A stretch of DNA of 39,663 nt from Trueperaceae bacterium (GTDB lineage Bacteria > Deinococcota > Deinococci > Deinococcales > Trueperaceae). The position numbers and the translations under genes were made by a program. The stretch lies in NCBI GenBank assembly GCA_007130855.1, contig SLRS01000281.1:1-39663 (forward strand), written 5' to 3'. Below, in pieces: positions 20,415 to 26,527 of the stretch. A model generated the notes under the pieces. It worked only from the letters and a program-made list of their open reading frames with translations, had not been told where the DNA came from and searched no databases. Each line of letters opens with the position of its first letter. Position 1 is the first letter of the stretch.

Positions 20415-20906
20415 ATGCGAATCCTCCCTCGTTCGATCCGTGGCGCCGCGCTCGCGGCGCTCGTCGCAGCCGTGCTCCTGGCGGCGTGTGCGCCGACGAC
20501 CACCGGGAGCCGCGAAGCGCCCTTCAGGGCCGACCGCGACGGTCCCGCCGTGGCGCGCCCGGGCGACGCGGTCTACGTCCGGCTCGACGTGCCGCGCGAG
20601 GTGTTCGGCTTGACCCAGGCCGATCTGGGCGGACGCTGGCAGCCCTGGACGCCCACGCTGGCCCGCGCCGTGGCCACCTACCGCTTCACGCTGCGCGACC
20701 TCGTCGCGCCCGACGGCTGGGACTTGACGCTCGACCGGGCGGTGGCGTACCTGAGCCAGGGCCGGCGCACGGCTGCGATCGAGGTCATCGTGCGCGTGCA
20801 GGTGCCCAGCGATGCGCGGCTCGGCGGCCAGCGGGTGCGGGCGGTCCTGGTGGACCAGGGCGGCACCAGCATGCCGATCGAGATCGTGGTCCAGGTCGGG
20901 CGCTGA
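20415..20906 (+). CDS. Predicted lipoprotein of unknown function
   Basis: I do not recognise the family. The 163-residue product begins with basic residues and a hydrophobic stretch ending in the lipobox LLAAC with C25, so it should be lipid-modified and exported. The mature part looks all-beta, with alternating hydrophobic residues such as AVYVRLDVP and IEVIVRVQV, and has no further cysteine. It resembles a small immunoglobulin-like or adhesion-type surface domain, which is inference only. It converges on the minus-strand CDS at 20960, with a hairpin in the gap. Confidence 0.75.
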   Translation: MRILPRSIRGAALAALVAAVLLAACAPTTTGSREAPFRADRDGPAVARPGDAVYVRLDVPREVFGLTQADLGGRWQPWTPTLARAVATYRFTLRDLVAPDGWDLTLDRAVAYLSQGRRTAAIEVIVRVQVPSDARLGGQRVRAVLVDQGGTSMPIEIVVQVGR

Positions 20907-20916
20907 CCGGCACGCG

Positions 20917-20938
20917 GCCGACCCCAGGACGGGTCGGC
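20917..20938. terminator. Hairpin between converging genes
   Basis: GCCGACCC and GGGTCGGC form a perfect 8-bp stem around the loop CAGGAC, in the 53-base gap between the lipoprotein gene and the minus-strand CDS. No T-run is present. It could terminate both transcripts. Confidence 0.45.
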
Positions 20939-20959
20939 GCCGAGCCGACCGGACGCGGC

Positions 20960-21322
20960 TCAGCCTTCGAACCCCTCACGCTGCAGCCCGCTCACGCGCC
21001 AGCCGCCGTCGACGCCGAGCGCCAGGGTGAACAGCCAGCGCTGCGGGGCCACGGCGGAGCCTGGCGTCACCAGCACCTCGGCGCGCGCCGCGCGCTCGCG
21101 CCGGTCCCAGCTGCACACGCTCCGCTCGGCCGGCCCGAGCAGCGCTCGATGCCGCTCGTTGGCGAGCAGCCTCGCCAGGCCCGTCTCGTCGCCGACCTGG
21201 GCGGCGGGGCCCGGACCCAGCAGCGGCCAGGCGCGCGCCGCGGCGGTGGCGGGCTCGGCCTGATCGAGCGCCGCGAACAGCGCCGTCAGCAGGCTCCGCG
21301 CCTCGTCGTGCCGCGCCGGCAG
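20960..21322 (-). CDS. Small hypothetical protein downstream of gabD, non-canonical start
   Basis: This open frame on the minus strand is bounded by a stop at 20960 and an upstream in-frame stop inside the gabD end. I placed the start at a CTG at 21322, seven bases past the gabD stop, because no ATG, GTG or TTG occurs in frame until deep inside the protein. Coding evidence is strong: of about 120 codons only around seven end in A or T. The 120-residue product also looks natural: helical at first (SLLTALFAALDQAEPA), then a beta region ending WLFTLALGVDGGWRVSGLQ. It may be an NTF2-like or DUF4864-like domain (unverified). A sequence error or frameshift hiding the real start is the main alternative. 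Confidence 0.6.
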   Translation of the reverse strand: MPARHDEARSLLTALFAALDQAEPATAAARAWPLLGPGPAAQVGDETGLARLLANERHRALLGPAERSVCSWDRRERAARAEVLVTPGSAVAPQRWLFTLALGVDGGWRVSGLQREGFEG

Positions 21323-21329
21323 CGACGGG

Positions 21330-22760
21330 TCAGTCGAGCTTGAACGAGACGTACTTCACCTCGAGGTACTCCTCGATCCCCCAGGGTCCGCCCTCGCGGC
21401 CGATGCCCGACTCCTTGACGCCGCCGAAGGGCGCGTAGGGCGCTGCCGGCACGCCGTCGTTGACGCCCACGAGGCCGTACTCGAGCGCCTCGGAGACGCG
21501 GATGGCGCGGGCCAGGTCACGGGTGTACAGGTAAGCCGCCAGGCCGTAGGGGGTGTCGTTGGCCTGCTCGATGGCCTCGGCCTCAGTGCCGAAGCGCACC
21601 AGCGGCGCGACCGGCCCGAAGGTCTCCTCGTGCATGATGGCCATGTCGTTGGTGACGTCGGTGAGCACCGTGGGCGGGTAGAAGAGACCGCCGCTGGCGC
21701 GGCCGCCGGTGACGACCGTGGCGCCCTTGGCGACGGCCTCGTCGACGTGCTCCATCACCTTGGCGAGGCCCGCGCCGTCGACCAGCGGTCCGATGTCGGT
21801 GCCGTCGTCGAGCGGGTCGCCGACCTCCAGCGCCTCGACCGCGGCCGCGAAGCGCTCCACGAACGCCTCGAAGATGCCGTCTTGGACGTAGACCCGGTTG
21901 GTGCACACGCAGGTCTGGCCGGCGTTGCGGAACTTGCACGCCACCACCTGCGCCACGGCCCGGTCGAGGTCGGCGTCGTCGAAGACCAGGTAGGGCGCGT
22001 GCCCACCGAGCTCGAGCGAGAGGCGCTTGACCGTGTCGGCCGCCTGCCGGTAGAGCATCTTGCCGACCTCGGTCGAGCCCGTGAAGGAGAGCTTGCGGAT
22101 GCGCGGGTCGGCCATCATCACGCCGGTGACCGAGGCCGGCTTGAAGGAGGTCAACACCTGCAGAGTGCCGGGCGGGCCGCCCGCCTCGAGCCACAGCTCG
22201 GCGAGCCGCAGGGCCGTGAAGGGGGTCTGCTTGGCCGGCTTCACGATCATGGGGCAGCCGGCGGCCAGGGCCGGCGCCGCCTTGCGCGTCAGCATCGCGG
22301 CCGGGAAGTTCCAGGGGGTGATCGCGAAGGCCGGGCCGACCGGCTGTTTGATCGCCAGCAGGCGTTTGCCAGGCAGGTGGCTGGGGAACCAGGTGCCGTA
22401 GACCCGTTTGGCCTCGTCGGCGTACCACTCGACGAAGCCCGCCGCGTAGGCCGCCTCGCCGCGGCCCTCGCGGATGGGCTTGCCCATCTCCCGCGCCATC
22501 AGCCGGCCGAGTTCGTCCTGGTTGGCCATGATCAGGCCGTGCCAGCGGCGCAAGGTGGCGGAGCGCTCGAACGCGCTCACCTCACGCCAGTGCTCGAACG
22601 CGCTCCAGGCGATGTCGACCGCGGCCTTCGCCTCGGTCTCGCCGCAGTCCGCGGCGCTGCCCAGCGCCGCCCCAGTGGCGGGGGAGACCACCTCGAAGGT
22701 CTGCTCGGTGTCGTGCCAGTCGTCGGTCAGGTAGCGCGGAGAGGTCACGGTGGCGCTCAT
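21330..22760 (-). CDS. gabD: NAD(P)-dependent succinate-semialdehyde dehydrogenase-type aldehyde dehydrogenase
   Basis: The 476-residue protein has the full aldehyde dehydrogenase layout: cofactor-binding ITPWNFPAAML (147-157), KPAKQTP, FTGSTEVGK, the general base E250 in SLELGGHAP and the nucleophile C284 in NAGQTCVCTNR. C286 beside it is typical of succinate-semialdehyde dehydrogenases (GabD group). It probably oxidises succinate semialdehyde to succinate, but other small semialdehydes are possible. No GABA transaminase lies next to it. TAGACT six bases before the ATG suggests a leaderless mRNA. The small CDS at 20960 follows almost directly. Confidence 0.9.
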   Translation of the reverse strand: MSATVTSPRYLTDDWHDTEQTFEVVSPATGAALGSAADCGETEAKAAVDIAWSAFEHWREVSAFERSATLRRWHGLIMANQDELGRLMAREMGKPIREGRGEAAYAAGFVEWYADEAKRVYGTWFPSHLPGKRLLAIKQPVGPAFAITPWNFPAAMLTRKAAPALAAGCPMIVKPAKQTPFTALRLAELWLEAGGPPGTLQVLTSFKPASVTGVMMADPRIRKLSFTGSTEVGKMLYRQAADTVKRLSLELGGHAPYLVFDDADLDRAVAQVVACKFRNAGQTCVCTNRVYVQDGIFEAFVERFAAAVEALEVGDPLDDGTDIGPLVDGAGLAKVMEHVDEAVAKGATVVTGGRASGGLFYPPTVLTDVTNDMAIMHEETFGPVAPLVRFGTEAEAIEQANDTPYGLAAYLYTRDLARAIRVSEALEYGLVGVNDGVPAAPYAPFGGVKESGIGREGGPWGIEEYLEVKYVSFKLD

Positions 22761-22824: not shown

Positions 22825-24321
22825 TCAGGCGGCGCCGATGAGGTCGTCGGCGATCTTCGCGGAGGAGAGGACCCCCGGCAGGCCGGCGCCCGGATGCGTC
22901 CCGGCACCCACCAAGTACAAGTTGGGGATGTCTTGCGAGCGGTTGTGCGGCCGGAACCAGGCCGACTGCCGCAGGGTCGGCTCCACCGAGAAGGCCGAGC
23001 CGAGATAGCTGCCGAGGGTGTCGCGGAAGTAGCGCGGGTCGACCATCCGCTCGGTGACCAGGTGCTCGGAGAGACCGGGCAGGTAGCGTTCCTCGAGCAG
23101 GGCCATGATCGCGTCGCGGTAAGGCTGGGCAGAAGTGGCCCAGTCGATACCGCTCTTGAGGTTCGGCACCGGCGAGAGCACGTAGAAGTTCTCGTGGCCC
23201 TCGGGCGCGATGCTGGCGTCGGTGATGGTGGGCATGTGCAGGTAGAGGCTGAAGTCCTGCGCCAGGGTCCCGCGGTTGTGGAAGATGTCGCTCAGCAGTT
23301 CCTCGTAGCGCGGGCCGAGGATGATGTTGTGGTGGGCCAGCCCGGTGTCGGTGTAGCGCCGATCGGTGCCGAAGTACAGCACGACGAGCGACATCGAGAA
23401 GCGCGTCTTCTCGAAGCGCTCGTCGCTGTTGTGCTTGCGGTAGCGCGGGTCGATCATGGTGCTATAGGTGGTCGCGACGTCGGCGTTGGAGACCACGATG
23501 TCGGCGCCGATCTCGCGCCCGTCGGCGAGCACCACGCCGGTGGCGCGCGGCGTACCGTCGGGAGCCTCCTTGACGCGGATGTGGTCGACCCTGGCGCCGA
23601 GTTCGACCTCCACCCCGAGGTGTTCGAGCAGCCGCCCGAACGCCGCGACCAACTCGCCCGTCCCACCCATCGCGTACCACACGCCCCACTCCCGCTCGAG
23701 GTAGTGGATCATGGCGTAGATGCTGGTGGTGTCGAACGGGTTGCCGCCCACGAGCAGCGGATGGAAGCTGAAGCACTGCCGCAGGAAGTCGTCCTCGACG
23801 TACTTCGACACGTAGCGGTAGACGCTCTGGTCGGAGCGCAGGCGCATCAGGTCGGGTGCCACCTTGAGCATGTCCCACAGCGTCAGGAAGGGGTGATCGG
23901 CGAGCTCGGTGAAACCCTTGTCGAAGATCTTCTTGGTGGTGTGCAGGAAGTTGAGGTAGCCGCGCTTGTCGGCCGGGTTGAACCGCTCGATCTCGCCGAG
24001 GGTGAACAGCTCGTCGTCGTTGTAGTCGAAGCGGCGCCCTTTGTGGTCGAAGATCCGGTAGAAGGGGTCGCACTTGACGAAGTCGACCTCGTCCTCGCGG
24101 CGCCGGCCCGCCTTGGCCCAGATGTCGTCGAACAGCCACGGGGCGGTGATGATCGTGGGGCCGCCGTCGAACTTGAAGCCATCTTGCTCGAAGACGTAGG
24201 CACGTCCGCCGAGCTTGTCGAGGGCCTCGACCAGCGTGACCTGGTGCCCCCCGGCTGCGAGGCGGGCGGCGGCAGCGAGGCCTCCGAAGCCCGAACCGAT
24301 GACCACGATGCGGCGTTTCAT
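22825..24321 (-). CDS. crtI: Phytoene desaturase (CrtI family)
   Basis: CrtI enzymes desaturate phytoene towards lycopene using FAD, at the membrane. The 498-residue protein starts with the Rossmann motif GSGFGG (9-14) followed by [10 protein letters not shown], and ends with the CrtI signature [20 protein letters not shown] plus [13 protein letters not shown]. Both fit the bacterial phytoene desaturase group. No crtB or crtE is adjacent, so the carotenoid pathway is dispersed. Related CrtO/CrtD-type activities cannot be excluded. ATG 24321 is chosen because the motif begins eight residues later and TACGCT lies seven bases upstream. Confidence 0.92.
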
Positions 24322-24328
24322 GCCCCAC

Positions 24329-24334
24329 AGCGTA
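24329..24334 (-). promoter_or_regulatory. -10 box of crtI (leaderless)
   Basis: TACGCT on the minus strand ends seven bases before the ATG at 24321. Confidence 0.5.
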
Positions 24335-24398
24335 CCGATTCGCGCCGGTGCCCACGTGGAGCCGCGCTCACAGTGCCGACGGCGCTCGGCGGCCGGGC

Positions 24399-25253
24399 TC
24401 AGCTGCCACGCAGGGCGAGTTGCACCACGTCGCGCGCGAAGCGGGCTGTGGCGAGGGTGGCCGGGTGATCGAGCCGCATGCGGGTATCGGGGTGGGCGGC
24501 GGTAAGGACCGCCAGCGCCGCCAGCCGGCTGCCGTCGCGGCGCCAGACCAGGCCGGCGTCGTGGCGCGCGTGGCTGATCCAGCCCCCCTTGCTCCCGACG
24601 CTCAGCCCGCCGAACGCCTGCGCCTCGCCGGTGATCAGCCGCGCGATGGCTTCGCGGTGGCGCTGCGCGCGCAGCGTGTCGCGGGCCCAGGCGCTCGCTG
24701 CGGCGCCGAGCAGGCGCTCGTCGTCGAGCGCCAGCAGCAGTCGCAGCACGTCGCCGGCGGTGGTGACGGCCATGTGCCCGGCCCGTTGCCGCGGCGTCTG
24801 CCGAACGGCGTCCACCTGCAGCGGGCCCTCGAGCCACGTGTTCGGCATCTCGATGCCGGCCAGCGCGGCGTTGACGGCCGCCAGCCCGAGCTGCGCCAGC
24901 ACGAGGTTGGCGGCCATGTTGTCGGAGATCACGATCATGAGCCTGAGCATGTCGCGCCAGCTCGGGGCCAGGCCCGCGTCGAGCAGCTGCAGCAGCCCGC
25001 TGCCACCGGCCGCGTGCTCGTCCGCGAGCGCCACGCGCTCGTCGAGGTCGAGCTCGCCGCGTTCGGCCGCTCGCAGCGCCAGCACCAGCAGCGGCAGCTT
25101 GACCAGGCTGGCGGCCGGGAAGGGGGTAGATTCGCCGACGCCGAACGCCTCGCCCGCTATCTCGGCGGCCACGGCGTGCTGCCCGGGGAGGCGACCGAAG
25201 CGCTGGCGCGCGCGCGTCGCGAGCGCTGCAGTCAGCTCCGCGCGGCGCCTCAT
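24399..25253 (-). CDS. Serine hydrolase of class A beta-lactamase fold
   Basis: The 284-residue protein has the active-site set of the beta-lactamase2 family: S49-L-V-K52 (SxxK), S110-D-N (SDN) and S221-K-G-G in place of the usual K-T-G. The omega-loop glutamate of true class A enzymes (ExxLN) is not visible; the region reads [19 protein letters not shown]. No signal peptide is seen although the family normally works outside the membrane. It is therefore probably a hydrolase or peptidase-like relative, not a resistance enzyme. The ATG overlaps the stop of the upstream decarboxylase (ATGA), so the two are translated together. Confidence 0.8.
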
Positions 25254-26527
25254 CCGGCGCCCGGGCGCCCGGCCGCCGTGTCGCCACCGGCTCCTGCGTC
25301 GACCGCCGCGTCGGCGTCGAGCTCATCGGCCCAGAGCGCCTCGAGCGGCTGTCGCCGGCGCACCAGGCGGGCGGCGCCCGAAGGCTCGATCACCAGCTCG
25401 GCGGCGTGGGTGTGCGAGGCGTAGTGCGAGCCCATGCCCAAGCCGTAAGCGCCGGCCATGCCGACCGCCAGGAGATCGCCGGGCTCGAGCTCGGGCAGCG
25501 CCACGTCGCGGCCGAGCCGGTCGGCGTTCTCGCACAGCGGGCCGTCGACGTCGGTGACCACGTCGAGCGGCGCGGGCTCGACGCCCGCCGGGAGCAGCTG
25601 CCCGCGCACGCTCACCGGGGCGATGGGGTGGCGGGCGCCGTAGAGCGCCGGCCGCAGCAGGTCGGCCATGCCGGCGTCGACGATCAGGTGCCGGCGGAGC
25701 CCTTGTTTGACGTGCAAGACGCGCGTCAGGAGCGTTCCGGCGGCCGCGACCAGGGCCCGACCGGGCTCGAGCCAGAGGCGCAGGCCGCGCGGCTCCACGT
25801 GTCGGGCCAGCTCCTCCGCGAGCCGCTCGAGCGGGTAGCCGGGGAGGGCGAAGCCGCCACCGAGGTCGAGTTCGCGCGCTGCTGGCAGGGCGTCGAAGAG
25901 CGGCATCAGCGTGCGCAGCACCTCCTGGTGCACGGCCGGATCGGTGAGTTGCGAGCCTGCGTGCACGTGGAACCCCGCCAGCGCGCCGGCGGCCGCCACC
26001 TCGCGGGCCAAGGCGAGCGCCTCGTCCGGGGCGAGCCCGAACTTCGAGTCGGCCTTGCCGACCGCCATGTGCTCGTGCGTGCGGGGGTCGAGTCCGGGGT
26101 TGACGCGCACGAATGCCCGCATCCCCTCGGGCCAGCCGCCGGCGTCGGCGCGCCAGGCGAGCCACTGCCCTGCCGAATCGAGGCTCAGGCGCGTCACCCC
26201 GACCGCGCGCGCCAGGGCCCGCAGCGCCGGATCCTGGGCCGGGCCACCGACCACGATCTCGTCGACGGCGATGCCTGCGCGGATCGACCGCGTCAGCTCG
26301 CCGACCGTGATCACCTCGGCCCCCACGCCGGCGCCGGCCAGGTGGCGCAGGAGCGCGCCGTTGGCGTTGGCCTTGACCGCGTACGCCAGGGTTGCGTCGG
26401 GCACGTGGGCGCGCAGCGTGGCGAGGGCACGGTCCACCTCGCCGAGGTCGTAGACCCACAAGGGTGTGTCGTGGCGTCGCGCGAGGTCGAACAGCAGGGC
26501 GGTGCGGGAGCCGTGCGGTGCGCTCAT
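25250..26527 (-). CDS. lysA: Diaminopimelate decarboxylase-type PLP enzyme (fold type III)
   Basis: The 425-residue protein matches the LysA/ornithine decarboxylase fold. Visible are PLP lysine K52 in [16 protein letters not shown], the glycine-rich [18 protein letters not shown], the dimer-site cysteine in DGPLCENAD, and [17 protein letters not shown] near the end. The best match is diaminopimelate decarboxylase, which makes lysine from meso-diaminopimelate. However, Deinococcus and Thermus make lysine by the LysW/alpha-aminoadipate route, so the substrate is uncertain. TAGCAT seven bases upstream supports ATG 26527. It is the first gene of a two-gene operon with the serine hydrolase. Confidence 0.82.

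Follow-up and report, generated by a model that had tools for sequence, protein, structure and literature searches.

Can a gene that lacks an ordinary start codon ahead of its conserved domain still be translated and, if so, from where? The question is raised by a locus in the window, by which we mean the whole 39,663-nucleotide stretch analysed here (contig SLRS01000281.1), part of a Trueperaceae genome (G000) that is a metagenome assembly, a draft in 287 contigs. On the minus strand, positions 21322–20960 translate into 120 residues followed by a TGA stop, with the C-terminal end GGWRVSGLQREGFEG. G+C at codon positions 1, 2 and 3 of this ORF is 0.833, 0.600 and 0.942. The frame is bounded upstream by a TGA at 21358–21356 (−), for an open length of 131 codons, and from that stop to codon 69 it contains no ATG, GTG or TTG; the earliest ordinary in-frame start is the GTG of codon 69 itself, at 21118–21116 (−). 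An earlier note on this DNA had described a frame of about 120 codons with about 94% third-position G+C and no ordinary start, and had pointed to a CTG at 21322, seven bases past the stop of gabD. Both descriptions agree with our count: the gabD stop is TGA 21332–21330 (−), the CTG occupies 21322–21320 (−), and a 7-nt spacer (21323–21329) separates them.

The gene directly upstream of the ORF, at 21330–22760 (−), encodes a gabD-like succinate-semialdehyde dehydrogenase, which matches NCBIfam model TIGR01780 at E 8.8e-192 and 637.9 bits, just below the cut-off of 646.35. On the other side of the ORF lies a convergent lipoprotein-like gene (20415–20906, +), named by eye from its N-terminus. We searched for near-cognate starts (CTG, ATC, ATT, ATA, ACG, AAG and AGG) in frame between the upstream TGA and the domain and found two from this list, CTG 21322 and an ACG at 21352–21350 (−) that lies within gabD. 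A further CTG is formed at the gabD stop itself, where a C and the TGA make up CTGA (21333–21330, −), out of frame with the ORF.

Four of the other five frames over the same bases carry 1–3 stops and one, antisense, is open. Since the antisense frame is open too, openness of the ORF is by itself weak evidence of coding. The antisense frame runs from a GTG over 285 codons (20486–21343, +), spans both the ORF and the lipoprotein gene, and is probably a shadow frame produced by G+C-rich DNA. In 668,836 screened bases of G000, 18 of 735 coding-like runs, the ORF included, lack an ordinary start before their coding signal, and many of the remaining 17 look by eye like antisense shadows.

We take the ORF to be coding because of homology. 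A single-protein search of six congeners gave matches in three (G001, G004 and G005; E 3.4e-40, 2.9e-39 and 6.9e-39). Each of these copies stands directly behind gabD and starts with the GTG of a GTGA, and the window protein is 60%, 59% and 58% identical to them over 120 codons, with no internal indels. The open antisense frame is what a chance open frame in G+C-rich DNA might look like, but identity of 58–60% with copies that three congeners carry in the equivalent position after gabD rules that explanation out for practical purposes. The earlier note had called the protein natural-looking and proposed that orthologues be checked for an ATG at the equivalent codon; the conservation was found, the ATG was not, the congeners having GTG. 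On this comparison the ORF is a real gene, or was one until very recently.

A family profile found matches in 21 of 39 Trueperaceae genomes, at 22 places, one of them a contig-end fragment. In the remaining 72 of 111 genomes of the phylum, where fewer candidates were scored per genome, it found none, and the ORF protein had no match among plasmid records. Within the genomes searched, then, this is a gabD-linked protein family confined to Trueperaceae and without a confident database name. By eye, the preceding frame ends in a gabD-like C-terminus in 18 of the 20 other members, the exceptions being those of G029 and G010. The G029 member (L051) is preceded by a frame ending IADDLIRESVAG, which by eye resembles the end of a phytoene-desaturase-like gene that the window carries at 22825–25326.

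In the genus of the window, its own genome counted, the family is present in four of seven genomes. In congener G003, whose gabD is 85% identical, no such gene lies in the interval from gabD to the convergent lipoprotein gene (L034), so the gene is dispensable in the genus. In the nearest congener, G002 (gabD 88% identical), contig C442 stops 43 nt past the gabD stop and the lipoprotein gene sits at the end of a different contig. G002 gave no family match by profile, and the conserved N-terminus was not seen by eye in the 43 nt behind gabD. Immediately after gabD, this contig end (L033) has an imperfect 17-nt tandem repeat; as in the window, a CTG follows the gabD stop after seven bases, soon before the contig ends. 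G006 yielded neither the lipoprotein gene nor, at E 1e-100, gabD.

Where, then, do the relatives start? The starts assigned to the 20 other members are ATG in 2, GTG in 8, TTG in 8 and CTG in 2. The 5′ ends of these 20 are readable, and in 10 of them the start and the gabD stop share an NTGA: GTGA in G001, G004, G005 and G036, TTGA in G025, G032, G033 and one G037 copy, and CTGA in G012 and G024. In G021, G034 and the second G037 copy a TTG lies one base past the gabD stop. The place of the start is thus stable across the family while its codon varies, and its frame relative to gabD has shifted before. The two CTGA members belong to another genus than the window, g7. At the G012 CTG there is no ordinary in-frame start from 194 codons before to 81 codons after; G024 has an in-frame GTG at −18 codons, inside gabD, and another at +10. 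With ordinary starts near the CTG of G024, G012 is the clean case.

The window copy differs from all of these. By hand count, the distance from the gabD stop to the conserved HD(D/E) motif is 19 nt in the window and 32 nt in the three congeners. Because the linker is 13 bases shorter, the overlap CTG at 21333 is out of frame and CTG 21322 becomes the plausible start. For the same reason the window is not a simple copy of the G012/G024 arrangement: it has the CTGA of those members, in the wrong frame, and no ordinary start ahead of the conserved domain. This exact arrangement, with a candidate CTG start at +7, is seen in one genome. The earlier note had listed three possible origins: reinitiation at a CTG start, frameshifting or an erroneous base. 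Of these the orthologues favour the CTG, with the qualification that the CTG homologous to theirs is out of frame. The same note had held that an ATG lost here by mutation would mark a pseudogene. The comparison took another form, as the congeners have GTG and the window departs from them in linker length and in the base before the TGA.

A wrong base count within 21333–21310 would restore a familiar picture, since with the linker in another phase the overlap CTG comes into frame, as in G012 and G024, and the real gene would start at the CTGA overlap. We consider such an assembly error improbable: single-base indels are rare in short-read contigs, and the start would still be CTG, so that the puzzle of a gene with no ordinary start would stay. 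Translation might also enter the frame from further upstream, by initiation at ACG 21352 inside gabD or by a ribosomal frameshift, either from gabD or from a short peptide that starts at CTG 21333. The ACG is in frame, and a C after UGA makes for weak termination. Yet no slippery sequence was seen by eye at the end of gabD, and of 20 relatives, 10 start in the overlap with the gabD stop and 3 after a gap of one base; we regard these routes as very improbable. By its place, CTG 21322 is the better candidate than ACG 21352.

The predicted structure bears on the start as well. An AlphaFold2 model of the window protein, from an alignment of 21 rows, has pLDDT 93.8 and pTM 0.87. With residues numbered from CTG 21322, its helices span residues 8–19, 24–34, 37–43 and 46–54 and its strands 65–75, 78–87, 94–102 and 108–115. 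Since the first helix begins at residue 8, the real start should be close to CTG 21322. A start at the GTG of codon 69 was rejected, as it would delete all four helices, the helical half of the model.

Two readings lead, a working gene and one recently lost. Our leading reading, to which we give an even chance, is a functional small NTF2-like gene translated from the gabD mRNA and started at CTG 21322. A ribosome would terminate gabD at TGA 21332–21330, remain on the mRNA and begin again seven bases further, at the CTG, where the initiator tRNA would pair with a mismatch at the first base. Output would be low and tied to gabD translation. In the history of the locus, a change in linker length would have moved the overlapping NTG out of frame, and the nearby CTG would have taken over.

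No Shine–Dalgarno-like pairing was detected in the 20 nt before CTG 21322 (0.3 kcal/mol), which weighs against this start; the GTG-started gene of G005 has none either (0.6 kcal/mol), and the two together fit coupling rather than free initiation. If CTG 21322 is the start, the gap to be crossed from TGA to CTG is 7 nt. PMC10666635 and PMC6728339 describe termination–reinitiation at short overlaps with a steep fall with distance. In PMC10666635, reinitiation losses are 5, 20 and 70% at 2 nt, with near abolition at about 20 nt, and studies with coupling across longer gaps are also cited. As to the codon, PMC4633059 reports no enrichment of CTG among the starts selected in mycobacteria (0.03%), and PMC11497404 finds, in an E. 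coli system, a lower stability of initiation complexes on CUG than on AUG, GUG and UUG. On these grounds a CTG at +7 should initiate weakly, with low output.

The other reading is that a real small indel in the linker put the start out of frame, and that what remains is a young pseudogene not yet decayed. Selection and decay speak to both. Between the window copy and the three congeners, dN is 0.33–0.36 and dS 0.53–0.71, a ratio of 0.47–0.67; for gabD in the same pairs the ratio is 0.21–0.22. Among the three congeners themselves, dN/dS is 0.44, 0.34 and 0.08 for the ORF and 0.12, 0.11 and 0.07 for gabD. The family evolves fast, and the ratios of the window copy are among its highest, still below 1. 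In a leave-one-out comparison, 10 columns reach at least 90% conservation in the other 20 members, and the window copy keeps 7 of them; for each of the three congeners the count is 9 of 9, for G032 7 of 10, for G020 8 of 11, for G012 8 of 12 and for G024 7 of 12. The members with an assigned or proposed CTG start (G012, G024 and the window) are also among those keeping the fewest. Such a pattern would fit a weaker constraint on the lineage of the window.

Neutral decay was simulated with a simple model and assumed rates, taking 0.26 substitutions per site, half of the gabD dS of 0.528, for the time since the split from G002. Under neutrality since that split, the chance of an open frame today is 0.062, 0.001 and 0.000 at 0, 0.05 and 0.15 indels per substitution, which disfavours an old pseudogene; we regard that as unlikely. 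When six conserved residues were also required, the probability was at most 0.001 at 0.26 per site; as the six were chosen from those that the window keeps, we give this value no weight. After neutrality of only about 0.02 per site, the frame would remain open with probability 0.33–0.82.

In favour of a recent loss are a linker 13 nt shorter, which is not a multiple of three, a gene absent from G003, and in G002 a profile search without a match and a contig end with a tandem repeat and without the conserved N-terminus by eye. The 3 of 10 well-conserved columns at which the window copy differs (the congeners differ at 0 of 9) led us to weight the CTG reading down and the loss up. Against the loss stand the 120-codon open frame with its 94% third-position G+C, a dN/dS below 1 and the improbability of long neutrality in the simulation. 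We judge a recent loss possible, though rather doubtful.

CTG is seldom counted among bacterial start codons. Non-canonical ones are reportedly treated, to judge by the title, in work by Baudet from 2010 on Deinococcus deserti, which is of the same phylum as the window; our literature search found no paper titled on start codons in Truepera. In genus g7, two genes which we take to encode cysteine desulfurases, from the motif YLDHAATTP, have plausible CTG starts just behind or overlapping the upstream stop: L099:16040-17200 in G012 and L133 in G024. The G012 protein matches Pfam Aminotran_5 with 226 bits, and profile position 2 falls on residue 8 counted from the overlap CTG. The G024 frame is closed by a stop six codons before the candidate start, and no ordinary start occurs until codon 17, by which point YLDHAATTP has been passed. 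The CTG proposed for this gene comes 4 nt after the TGA of the preceding gene; in the alignment, G012 shows a CTG at that position and G032 a GTG. The orthologues of G035 and G029 have GTG and TTG near the equivalent place. Judged from these alignments, the g7 desulfurase points independently to a CTG start just behind a stop.

We also surveyed NTGA overlaps of coding-like runs (237,553 bases in the case of G000). In G012 the first base was C in 19, G in 64, A in 6 and T in 2, and C accounted for 2 of 44 in G013 and 9 of 44 in G000. CTGA overlaps without an ordinary start within −12 to +20 codons numbered 5 of 19, 0 of 2 and 2 of 9 in G012, G013 and G000. Of the five in G012, four have weak coding scores, which leaves the family member as the one convincing case; the cysteine desulfurase falls outside the filter because of a GTG at +20. 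In G000 the survey yielded no second case that we found convincing. The survey alone is thus no proof that CTG starts are frequent.

Runs without an ordinary start were also read by eye, the 18 of 735 in G000 together with 27 of 451 in G012 and 14 of 412 in G013. A Pfam scan of four such runs gave one 2-hydroxyacid dehydrogenase (G013), weak AAA-type matches (G000) and two runs with no match. The dehydrogenase, L081:5589-6575 (2-Hacid_dh_C, E 3.7e-45), is closely preceded by an in-frame stop and shows coding signal for 23 codons before any ordinary start, with CTG and ACG as near-cognate candidates. The G000 run with the weak AAA-type matches, L142:2207-3850, is coding-like over 548 codons and has no ordinary start near its beginning.

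A variant initiator tRNA was considered and rejected as a cause. PMC11497404 describes an initiator-tRNA stem change that relaxes discrimination against CUG in vitro. The ordinary initiator anticodon-stem string occurs exactly in G000, G001, G002, G004, G005, G012, G024 and G032, so the CUG-relaxing change was not seen in these genomes. ARAGORN called tRNA-Met at that string in G000, G001, G002, G004 and G005. In G003 the string was found with one difference only, and no tRNA was called there.

More broadly, Trueperaceae may use CTG as a working start at gene junctions, a lineage-wide relaxation under high G+C. We hold this tentatively, at somewhat short of an even chance. Its instances would be the CTGA starts of G012 and G024, the CTG at +7 in the window and the desulfurase CTG 4–5 nt behind a TGA in two species, and such use would be possible since post-termination ribosomes need no strong start signal. 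If post-termination ribosomes do take CTG, genes behind stops in G+C-rich genomes will have been missed or shortened in annotation. With GTG, TTG and CTG at one and the same overlap, and a desulfurase CTG in two species, the question of CTG starts becomes a testable one.

What the protein does can be approached through its fold. The model predicts an NTF2-like fold, with helices packed against a curved beta sheet as in NTF2 and cystatin, and its four helices and four strands are what it shares with NTF2-like, ketosteroid-isomerase and cystatin-like proteins. A Foldseek search of solved structures had no match at E ≤0.001 (best 2.4e-3), and many NTF2-like and ketosteroid-isomerase-like entries appear in its list. 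In a structural comparison with 1000 chains, 381 had Z of at least 8; NTF2-like and ketosteroid-isomerase-like entries were frequent among the best 50, with YchJ and PBP2a/PBP5 entries also present. The best match, 3gwr_A (Z 12.6, rmsd 2.8, 107 residues aligned), is CaMKII-association-domain-like and only 9% identical in sequence. By sequence, solved structures gave weak matches only: a designed complex (E 0.0011), a modified ketosteroid isomerase (0.19) and a designed NTF2 (1.4). Fold and place suggest that the protein, produced along with the dehydrogenase, is probably its small partner, in a ligand-binding or accessory role.

Among named families, no Pfam entry matched the window protein above its cut-off. 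DUF4864 (PF16156), for which a literature search found no paper, does not match it at E 1 and matches 2 of 21 family members weakly (best E 0.0028); its alignment with the G012 member runs along residues 16–114, yet scores 17.3 bits against a curated cut-off of 27.1.

The closest known arrangement is that of gene pairs whose start and stop codons overlap, as described in PMC6728339 and PMC10666635. A text search of these two papers met no word that begins with CTG (CUG was looked for in PMC10666635 only). The family resembles such pairs in that gabD and the next gene overlap as NTGA in 10 of 20 other members. It differs from them in that the start at the overlap can apparently be CTG and in that the candidate start in the window lies 7 nt past the stop.
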